Source: a virus. From it: a stretch of DNA of 26,104 nucleotides. The notes under the pieces were generated by a model, which made no database searches, was not told where the DNA came from, and saw only the letters and a program-made list of their open reading frames with translations. This document shows positions 7,205 through 13,416 of the stretch, one piece after another (within the stretch, counting starts at the first letter, position 1; each line of letters opens with the position of its first letter). The position numbers and the translations under genes are program-made. The stretch lies in the IMG/VR virus record IMGVR_UViG_3300018080_000532, positions 1 to 26,104 of that record, one strand, 5' to 3'.

Positions 7205-7246
7205 AATTAATCACAACTTATGCTATACAAGAGGGAGACGTTTAAA

Positions 7247-7873
7247 ATGCCGGGAATTAATTACTATAAAGAGAAAATATCTCAATATCCGGTATTGCCG
7301 GATAAAGAGGTCAGATCGCTGATTGCCCTGGCGAAAAAGGGGGATATTGAAGCCAGGAATAAAGTAGTAAAACACAATTTGCTCTTTGTGTTGAAATTAG
7401 GGCTTGTAGCCAGCTACAACACTGGTGTTGAGCTGGATGAGTTAGTATCAGAAGGGAACATTGGTTTATTTGAGGCGATTGACCATTACGACGAAAAAAA
7501 CGGGGCACGTTTTTTAACGATCGCTAAGTATTATATTGAACGTGCGATAAAGACGTATATCCGCGATAAAAGAAAAGTAGTCCACGCTCCTGCCTACAAG
7601 ACCGTTACGTTTTGTGACGTGAACGAAGTGTACCACCAGAACCATCTCCAGCCCACATCTTACGAAGAAACGGATTTTATAGACAACCTACTATCAGAGT
7701 TAACAGAATTTCAGCAGTTTATTATCCGCCGGTATTACGGGATAGGTGTGGAACAACGCAAAAGTTTCAGGTGGATTGGTAACGAAAGGGGACGCAGTCG
7801 CCAGATCACCTGGCATCACTATGATAAGGGGATGAAAAAGTTGAAGAAAAAATTAAGAAAAGAATTGAAATGA
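7247..7873 (+). CDS. Phage-encoded sigma-70 family factor
   Basis: A 208-residue protein. Residues about 3-30 resemble region 1.2, and about 35-115 match sigma region 2: GDIEARNKVVKHNLLFVLKL, then ELDELVSEGNIGLFEAIDHY, ARFLTIAKYYIERAIKTYI and RDKRKVVHAP. The C-terminal third (FQQFIIRRYYGIG, then an HTH-like segment with GNERGRSRQITWHHYDKGM) looks like a short region 4. ATG at 7247 is chosen for GAGGGAG 9 nt upstream; an earlier ATG at 7220 has no ribosome site. It lies at the end of the transposition genes, where Mu has its middle/late activators Mor and C. Redirecting host RNA polymerase to phage late promoters is the likely job, but that is inference. Confidence 0.85.
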   Translation: MPGINYYKEKISQYPVLPDKEVRSLIALAKKGDIEARNKVVKHNLLFVLKLGLVASYNTGVELDELVSEGNIGLFEAIDHYDEKNGARFLTIAKYYIERAIKTYIRDKRKVVHAPAYKTVTFCDVNEVYHQNHLQPTSYEETDFIDNLLSELTEFQQFIIRRYYGIGVEQRKSFRWIGNERGRSRQITWHHYDKGMKKLKKKLRKELK

Positions 7874-11369: not shown

Positions 11370-11500
11370 ATTGTGGTAAAACATTTAAATCATTGTGCCG
11401 CATATTCAAACGGCTTTTCAACATAATAACCGGTATAATTATGATAGCAATTTTACTGGTAGTATTGCGGGTAATTAGAACGAGCACAGGCCGAAAATAA
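11366..11500 (+). CDS. 44-residue single-span membrane peptide
   Basis: ATG overlaps the previous stop (ATGA at 11366-11369). The peptide has a basic Cys-containing N-terminus (KTFKSLCRIFKRLF) and one hydrophobic span (IITGIIMIAILLVVLRVI) with a basic tail. There is no clear ribosome site, so it would depend on coupling. It is the last gene before the antirepressor leader. The basic-hydrophobic pattern resembles small toxic or exclusion peptides, but no family is recognised. Confidence 0.5.
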   Translation: MNCGKTFKSLCRIFKRLFNIITGIIMIAILLVVLRVIRTSTGRK

Positions 11501-11527
11501 TATTGCTGTAACTATTTTTAACCAAAT

Positions 11528-11549
11528 GAAAAAAACGCTTGCTTTTTTC
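11528..11549 (+). terminator. Weak terminator candidate of the early operon
   Basis: GAAAAAA (11528-11534) and TTTTTTC (11543-11549) can pair around an 8-nt centre. The stem is all A-U apart from one pair, so termination would be weak. It stands just after the last early gene. A poor promoter match, TTGCTT (11540) and TATTAA (11564) spaced 18 bp, overlaps it and could start the antisense RNA. Confidence 0.25.
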
Positions 11550-11611
11550 TACGTATTTGACGATATTAATAATGCGTAGAACTCTTTAGCTTTTTAAATT
11601 CGAAAATAATT

Positions 11612-11700
11612 AAAGACCTGTCAGGCCGACTCTGGTGATTGTAGAGATCATCGGGAAGTCTCGCTAAAGAGCTTCACGCAAGTCCCTGGCAGGTCTTTTT
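11612..11700 (+). ncRNA. c4: C4-type antisense RNA upstream of the antirepressor
   Basis: A compact fold is visible. The outer stem pairs AAAGACCTGTCAGG (11612-11625) with CCTGGCAGGTCTTT (11685-11698), one G-U. Inside, GACT+CTGGTGAT (11628-11639) pairs with ATCATCGG+AGTC (11647-11660), leaving a 7-nt loop. The segment 11655-11671 (GAAGTCTC then GCTAAAGAG) is complementary to the antirepressor ribosome site: CTCTTTTAG (11710-11718), GAG (11722-11724) and ACTTC (11727-11731), with small bulges. GCTAAAGAG is also a perfect complement of CTCTTTAGC at 11582-11590, upstream in the same transcript. A T-run after the outer stem would end transcription. This is the arrangement of c4 in phages P1/P7, where the RNA is made from the same transcript and blocks ant translation. 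Rfam membership is not tested here. Confidence 0.78.
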
Positions 11701-11715
11701 GTTTTCGAACTCTTT

Positions 11716-11733
11716 TAGAAGGAGATACTTCTA
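11716..11733 (+). promoter_or_regulatory. Hairpin holding the antirepressor Shine-Dalgarno
   Basis: TAGAAG (11716-11721) and CTTCTA (11728-11733) are perfect inverted repeats around GAGATA. The AAGGAGA ribosome site lies in the stem and loop, and the last A of the stem is the A of the start codon. This would lower translation even without the antisense RNA. Confidence 0.55.
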
Positions 11734-12833
11734 TGAATGTACAACACACATTAGAGAAAGTCCCGTTTTATGACCAAAAGATTAGTGTGGTCATTAAAGG
11801 CAGGGATAAATTTATAGTAATGAAACCAATCTGTAAAAATTTAGAGTTGGATTGGAACGGTCAGTGCAGGAAGTTGTTAAGCCATAGGGATTTTGAGTAC
11901 AGGCTTGTCACAGTGGTTTCAAGCGATGGGAAAAGAAGGGACATGGGTTGTATCCCTTTGAAAAATCTTAATAAATGGCTTTTTTCGATTAATGTCAATA
12001 AGATGAGAAGTCCCAAATTAGTAGAGTGTTACCAGAAAGAATGTCTGGCAATACTGGAGAACCATGTGTATGGTATTCGAGATTCAGTGAATACTGAGTA
12101 TGCTTTAGAAAAAGTACCCTTTCATGGGCAGAAAATTACTGTCGTTATTAAGGATGGTGAGCAATTCGTTGCTATGAAGCCGATTTGCGAGAATTTAAAT
12201 TTAGACTGGCCTACCCAATTGATTAAATTAAAGATGAAAGCAGAAAAGTATGGGTATTGGGAAACCCCCATACCTACAAAAGGTGGGCGCCAAACAATGG
12301 GTTGTATCCCGTTAAAGAAGATAAATGGCTGGCTCTTTTCAATTAATCCTGACAAAACAAATAATCCAGGCTTGATTGAACGTTACCAGGAAGAATGCTT
12401 TACAGTATTATACAACTATTTTAATAAGGGAGCTGCTTATAACCCGGCGTTCAAAGGGGAAGAGCCTAATGGGCAATATTCCAAAGATAAATTAATGGAG
12501 GTGTCCCTTCGCTTGAATGAAGCACTCCTGGAAGCGGATAAGATGAGAAGAAAGTTATGTCCTCAGGCTTATGATCTGGACAATATTCCTGTTAATCATG
12601 AAACAATTCCGGATCCTTCTGTATTAACAAATACTGTTACTATAACGTATCTAAAATTAAGAAAATACCCCAAAGAACGTGCGATGCTGGAGAAATATTT
12701 AAACACATATCCGAGAGCCAGAAAGAGCATGGCCGAATTTTATGATAAAAATAAAGATGCTTCCCAGGTTTGTAAAAGAACCATTGCCCGGCTTATATGG
12801 CAGTATAATAAAAACAGAGAAGGGAGGTGGTGA
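11733..12833 (+). CDS. ant: Antirepressor with two P22 Ant N-terminal-like domains
   Basis: A 366-residue protein. Residues about 7-114 and 126-231 are two copies of one module. Each has VPF..QKI.VVIK, F(I/V).MKPIC.NL.LDW, an MGCIPLK..N.WLFSIN block and a final C-terminal helix around YQ(K/E)EC. This is the pattern of the P22_AR_N antirepressor domain, normally present once. Residues 232-366 are a helical, basic C-terminus. Antirepressors bind and inactivate a phage repressor and so cause induction; here the partner may be the double-HTH repressor at 539-1201. AAGGAGA precedes the ATG. Translation is likely controlled by the C4-like RNA. The repressor partner is inference. Confidence 0.82.
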   Translation: MNVQHTLEKVPFYDQKISVVIKGRDKFIVMKPICKNLELDWNGQCRKLLSHRDFEYRLVTVVSSDGKRRDMGCIPLKNLNKWLFSINVNKMRSPKLVECYQKECLAILENHVYGIRDSVNTEYALEKVPFHGQKITVVIKDGEQFVAMKPICENLNLDWPTQLIKLKMKAEKYGYWETPIPTKGGRQTMGCIPLKKINGWLFSINPDKTNNPGLIERYQEECFTVLYNYFNKGAAYNPAFKGEEPNGQYSKDKLMEVSLRLNEALLEADKMRRKLCPQAYDLDNIPVNHETIPDPSVLTNTVTITYLKLRKYPKERAMLEKYLNTYPRARKSMAEFYDKNKDASQVCKRTIARLIWQYNKNREGRW

Positions 12834-12838
12834 TTAAG

Positions 12839-13027
12839 ATGAAGAGTAAAGCATCCAAACCTCAAGAGATTCCGCAGGGGCCGGAACTTGCAGAAGAACA
12901 TCTATTGTTCTTTTTCCCATGTTTGCTAAAAGAGCATCAAGATGGTGATAATCTTTCTTCGGATATGAAAGAAGGATTATTGTTTTTATCTCCTGATTAT
13001 ATCAAAGAGAGGAGTGGGGCAAAATGA
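12839..13027 (+). CDS. Small protein in the antirepressor operon, unknown
   Basis: A 62-residue protein. ATG at 12839 is used; GGAGGTG lies 9 nt before it, and an in-frame GTG at 12827 overlaps that site. It contains a hydrophobic LLFFFPCLL stretch, too short for a sure membrane span. The stop overlaps the next ATG (ATGA). Function unknown. Confidence 0.55.
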   Translation: MKSKASKPQEIPQGPELAEEHLLFFFPCLLKEHQDGDNLSSDMKEGLLFLSPDYIKERSGAK

Positions 13028-13416
13028 AACTGAATCAGGTAATACCGTTAATGGTGACCGTGCTGTTTAAAACGATTCCGCTTTTCATCTATAAAAACCA
13101 ACTGTTTGTAAGTATTGATGCGATCTGTGATAACCTCTGCCTGGATAATAATTTTGAGAAAGACTCTATCAGACAGGGGACTTACATAAGCTGTGTGATG
13201 GGTCTTAATGGTCGTACTTTTGAATGTATTTCCATAGATAGTCTAACAGATTGGTTGAATACGATTGATGCTGAATTTGATACTGATGAAACAGTTAAAT
13301 GCCCTCCCCTTTTATTGCGCTACTATCAGGAACATCTTGTTAGTAAGATAAAAGAGGGCTACATCAGGCTGGTACGTTTAAAAATGCTAACCTTTGCCGG
13401 GGGTGATCGCCGATGA
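13024..13416 (+). CDS. Divergent third antirepressor-domain protein
   Basis: A 130-residue protein coupled to the previous gene. It follows the same order as the two modules in the antirepressor: TIPLFIYKNQLFVSIDAICDNLCLD, a FECISIDSLTDWLNTID block in place of GCIPLK..N.WLFSIN, and a YYQEHL end. Identity to those modules is low, so this is a degraded or specialised copy of the P22_AR_N-type domain. It could act as a partner or competitor of the larger protein. Evidence is pattern similarity by eye. Confidence 0.5.
   Translation: MKLNQVIPLMVTVLFKTIPLFIYKNQLFVSIDAICDNLCLDNNFEKDSIRQGTYISCVMGLNGRTFECISIDSLTDWLNTIDAEFDTDETVKCPPLLLRYYQEHLVSKIKEGYIRLVRLKMLTFAGGDRR

Follow-up and report, generated by a model that had tools for sequence, protein, structure and literature searches.

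A probable C4-type antisense RNA ahead of the antirepressor gene in a Mu-like, HK97-headed phage

C4-type switches and the phage studied here

The C4 antisense RNA of phages P1 and P7 (Rfam RF01695; its targets are filed as c4-a1b1, RF03163) lies upstream of an antirepressor and on the same strand, and copies of its target are found both upstream of the RNA and at the ribosome-binding site (RBS). The phage P1 record, our control throughout, annotates a1, b1, c4, a2 and b2, and in Rfam scans its C4 scores 68.8 bits and its c4-a1b1 region 51 bits. The RNA folds with zero linkers as a P1 stem enclosing hairpins P2 and P3, followed by 7 nt and the closing P1 strand; the strand after P3 is a' (CUGUCAA) and the P3 loop is b' (UCACUAAC). 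The GGW with which C4 starts has been linked to RNase P processing (PMC5320573). The sar RNA of phage P22 (RF00262) likewise exerts antisense control of an antirepressor, Ant, but is made from the opposite strand and overlaps the RBS. Here we describe an element at 11612-11703 that probably encodes a C4-type antisense RNA able to silence the downstream antirepressor gene, ant, in trans and so to sustain lysogeny. If so, the C4 immunity logic extends to a Mu-like phage in which a P22-type antirepressor is combined with an HK97-type head.

The window, the whole stretch analysed, spans 26,104 bases and makes up a complete IMG/VR record. As the preliminary description recognised, it belongs to a transposable phage with an HK97-type head: it encodes a transposase, a MuB-like ATPase, Gam and GemA homologues, an HK97-type capsid and a portal fused with a Mu F-like domain. 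The transposase, ATPase, terminase and capsid share only about 25-39% identity with the best matches found. A first genome scan and exact-peptide scans of IMG/VR with the antirepressor, transposase and capsid returned no close relative, and a DNA pattern search with the outer stem of the element likewise returned none. Among 398 genomes from one phylum, identity to the antirepressor reached 50% at best and over part of the protein, and distant Mu-type loci yielded no P22_AR_N gene by tblastn.

The ant gene (11733-12833, + strand) encodes 366 amino acids with two tandem P22_AR_N domains (Pfam PF10547, E 2e-57) and matches the PHROG anti-repressor Ant (E 3e-68). A third, weak P22_AR_N match (15.8 bits) lies at 13024-13416, two genes downstream, and together with the tandem domains suggests that this domain has been duplicated repeatedly here. 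The presumed target of the antirepressor is a CI-like repressor at 539-1201 on the minus strand, whose 220 amino acids contain two tandem Cro/CI-type HTH matches, an unusual arrangement in one chain. Upstream of ant, a 44-codon reading frame stops at 11500 and leaves a gap of 232 nt. Judging from its position after this frame, the AT-rich stretch at 11501-11546 (+ strand) is where a promoter for the element would be expected, and it contains no convincing sigma-70 promoter match. The phage encodes a sigma-70 region 2 protein of its own in the early region (7220-7873), which might drive the element's promoter where the sigma-70 consensus is not seen.

Fold and complementarity of the element

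The RNA from 11612 to 11698 on the + strand is predicted to form a three-way junction at -42.3 kcal/mol, and the slightly longer segment 11605-11705 folds at -42.8 kcal/mol (z -5.7), a value that none of 200 shuffles reached. The parts follow one another with zero linkers as P1 stem, P2 hairpin, P3 hairpin, a 5-nt single strand and the closing P1 strand. P1 (11612-11631 with 11681-11698) opens with the outer stem of the preliminary description, 14 perfect pairs between 11612-11625 and 11685-11698, and continues past a 2-nt CC bulge for another 4 bp (11628-11631 with 11681-11684). The inner hairpin is differently placed than proposed there: in the fold, the 9-bp P2 occupies 11632-11654 rather than 11628-11660, and the segment 11655-11671, which that description pairs with the Shine-Dalgarno region, makes up most of P3 (11655-11675). 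P3 carries the b'-like sequence GCUAAAGAGCUUC, and its loop GCUAAA (11663-11668) has a modelled unpaired probability of about 1. The adjoining a'-like strand ACGCA (11676-11680), which that description missed along with its upstream complement, is also predicted to be unpaired with a probability near 1. The stem runs into a U-run at 11696-11705 that includes one G (T at six of the eight bases past the stem) and was correctly placed 33 bp before the antirepressor ATG at 11733; from its sequence, we presume that it is an intrinsic terminator and the 3' end of the RNA. On the 5' side, the leader forms a small predicted hairpin (11547-11581) whose 3' arm holds the a1-like TGCGT at 11573-11577.

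The P3 hairpin can pair on both sides of the element. As previously noted, GCTAAAGAG (11663-11671) is an exact 9-bp complement of 11582-11590, and the match extends to 12 bp with one bulged C; the b1-like site thus defined, GAACTCTTTAGC at 11579-11590, is mostly unpaired in the folded leader. In 0.8% of shuffles (P 0.008), the 110 nt upstream yield a complement as good as the best one here. A near-repeat of this site, GAACTCTTTTAG, recurs at 11707-11718 against the ant Shine-Dalgarno, within a b2-like site (CGAACTCTTTTAG, 11707-11725) that adjoins the Shine-Dalgarno AAGGAGA. Here GCTAAAGAG does pair with CTCTTTTAG at 11710-11718 with one bulged T, as the preliminary description had it, and the pairing amounts to 6 bp exact or 8-9 bp with the bulge; taken alone it is equalled by 5-12% of shuffles and is not clearly above chance, so that the "visible pairing" of that description is insufficient by itself. 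Reading the sequence further, a' ACGCA complements TGCGT at 11573-11577 over 5 bp, and the leader between the RNA and b2, inspected by eye, offers only the mismatched a2 candidates TTGTTT and TTTTCG.

When both sites are required to pair with the same RNA residues, the complementarity exceeds chance. The joint score is 18, attained in 4 of 1500 dinucleotide shuffles and in 0.13% of 1482 mismatched RNA/flank pairs, and phage P1 itself scores 15. We set aside duplex energy by itself as a measure of pairing between RNA and leader, since even real C4 RNAs and mismatched pairs scarcely differ in it.

The junction is also rare. Across 4,668,672 strand-bases, 16 of 226 comparable stems (at least 12 bp, with a suitable span) had a C4 junction, and 11 of these 16, the present element (11612-11698) included, precede antirepressor or icd-like genes; since the criteria were set knowing phage P1 and the element, and the loci were gathered around antirepressors and Mu-type transposases, these counts describe rarity and are not a blind test. 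Ten of the 16, again with the element among them, lie directly before antirepressor genes or the icd/ant of phage P1, and the eleventh (L005) is followed by a short gene that, like icd, comes before an antirepressor. Per Mb of strand, about one element has this topology without preceding an antirepressor. The descriptor tried first was looser and returned 484 matches in 3.5 Mb of strand, a high background.

These observations bear on whether the element is simply an ordinary intergenic terminator whose topology and complementarity are coincidental. The AT-rich flanks and an RBS pairing that is within chance on its own would suit such a structure, but we find it very improbable given a joint complementarity with P of about 0.003 and a topology this seldom seen away from antirepressors that sits 35 nt before one. 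A purely cis-acting leader, in which a terminator or attenuator combined with an RBS-masking fold limits ant and no antisense RNA acts in trans, deserves more weight and is still unlikely in our judgment. It would account for the U-run directly behind a long stem, for a P1 stem that can be extended by TTCGAAAA/TTTTCGAA, and for one fold of 11575-11750 in which the ant RBS is paired with the upstream strand. However, that masking fold is lost once a longer transcript is folded, and neither the C4 junction nor an exposed P3 segment complementing both flanking copies of one sequence is explained by it.

We favor regulation in trans, which could work as follows. Transcription would start at about 11500-11570 and usually stop at the U-run, yielding an RNA of roughly 90-150 nt that keeps the P3 loop (b') and the adjoining single strand (a') exposed. 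Whenever a transcript read through into ant, the b' and a' of RNAs already made would pair in trans with the b copy beside the ant Shine-Dalgarno and bar ribosome entry. With translation blocked and the antirepressor off, the repressor encoded at 539-1201 would be left to maintain lysogeny and keep the phage dormant. The upstream b1/a1 copies may offer an alternative pairing within the long transcript.

Relation to phage P1 C4 and its RNA family

Several features place the element close to the C4 RNAs of phages P1 and P7. A P1 stem encloses P2 and P3 in a junction with zero linkers, b' lies in P3 and a' in the single strand 3' of P3 before P1 closes, and target copies stand upstream (b1, 9 bp exact; a1, 5 bp) and, less clearly, at the RBS of a same-strand antirepressor. 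The site order a1, b1, RNA, b2 and RBS/gene is likewise that of phage P1, with an a2 that is not convincing here. Other features differ. A U-run follows the stem where C4 usually has CC, most of b2 flanks the Shine-Dalgarno instead of covering it, no icd separates the element from the antirepressor, and the antirepressor is of the P22_AR_N type whereas Ant1 of phage P1 has a KilAC domain. The P1 stem neither begins with GG nor has CC after its 3' strand; it reads AAAGACC...GGUCUUU and then UUG.

The covariance model of RF01695 finds no match in the window, either at its gathering threshold (45 bits) or at E<=10, with phage P1 scoring as above in the same library. Because the model does not match, the GG/CC is replaced by a U-run and a2 is unconvincing, we do not file the element under RF01695. 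The c4/ant logic proposed in the preliminary description has good support from the structure, the order of sites, the location ahead of an antirepressor and the comparison with loci that carry genuine C4. The missing C4 match, one of the outcomes which that description had listed as refuting, speaks against family membership, and the 3' end is unlike that of C4. Most likely, the element is a divergent, terminator-ended variant of the known C4 switch and works like C4. A scaffold of this kind is missed by the current RNA model, so C4-type switches are probably under-counted. A covariance model of our own, built from 12 C4 elements, went unused as its consensus structure came out wrong, and a mixed alignment of elements proved unusable.

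A sar-type antisense RNA, transcribed over the ant RBS from the other strand as in phage P22, would fit the antirepressor, which belongs to the P22 Ant family; phages with such antirepressors often carry sar. The sar model gave no match in the window at gathering or at E<=10, and the structured element lies upstream of ant on the same strand; we rejected this arrangement as exceedingly improbable.

RNAs at other antirepressor loci

Genuine RF01695 C4 precedes the same kind of antirepressor in four of our loci (L203, L204, L230 and L237), and C4 also occurs at an antirepressor in the genome of the best genome match (L255). Antirepressors with the MKPIC motif have upstream elements in most of the IMG/VR and GTDB loci examined. 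Many prophages carry sRNA-Xcc1 (RF02221) before P22_AR_N genes, most of the matches falling at about 2770-2950 of their loci (L038, L052, L064, L069, L080, L180, L181, L183, L194, L195, L205, L212 and L215). Further sites were found at 4861-4944 in L176, 1505-1589 in L178, 1502-1588 in L179, 2142-2225 in L180 and 1508-1592 in L188, and five of seven further matches were also before P22_AR_N-like genes. One loop of sRNA-Xcc1 is complementary to the RBS region and the strand following that loop to a site just upstream, an arrangement resembling that of our element. The two differ in that the P2 region of sRNA-Xcc1 is a longer, conserved asymmetric domain, its stem is followed by CC and its sequence is unrelated; the window has no RF02221 match even at E<=10.

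In 26 C4-like and sRNA-Xcc1-like loci, the loops and the antirepressor ribosome sites co-vary: the loop/RBS complement averages 7.4 bp for matched and 5.1 bp for mismatched pairs (P < 5e-5). The longest complement between interior and leader is 7.18 matched versus 5.34 mismatched for the 17 non-redundant sRNA-Xcc1-like elements and 7.78 versus 4.71 for the nine C4-like ones, and none of 20,000 permutations gave matched-pair means as high in either set. This comparison suggests a phage role for sRNA-Xcc1, which apparently forms another class of C4-type RNA, a second one, outside Rfam's C4 clan. The passages on it found in two papers (PMC2996969, PMC12189769) discuss it as a possible virulence regulator or sRNA and state no link to antirepressors, and a joint text search of an open-access library returned no paper with both terms.

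An unnamed hairpin class appears in Haemophilus prophages (L176-L179, L185, L188, L190, L191, L198, L257 and L260), where the stem, about 67 nt long (GCCUGUAAGA...UCUUACAGGC), stands 29-31 nt before the antirepressor start codon; four copies scanned gave no Rfam match at this site. Like our element, these hairpins present a loop, of the UUUCUCCAC type, that complements the antirepressor RBS, and some copies have a U-run after the stem, but their predicted fold lacks the two-hairpin C4 junction. One possibility, to which we give an even chance, is that C4, sRNA-Xcc1, the Haemophilus hairpins and the present element are variants of one widespread control module, in which unlike scaffolds present short loops evolving together with the ribosome site of the antirepressor downstream. 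According to this view, our element would be the terminator-ended scaffold, and the "virulence" RNA sRNA-Xcc1 would at root be a prophage immunity RNA. Just upstream of C4 in two of the loci, isrK (RF01394) matches at 2698-2779 (L230) and 2702-2776 (L237) occupy the place that the a1/b1 leader holds in antirepressor loci.
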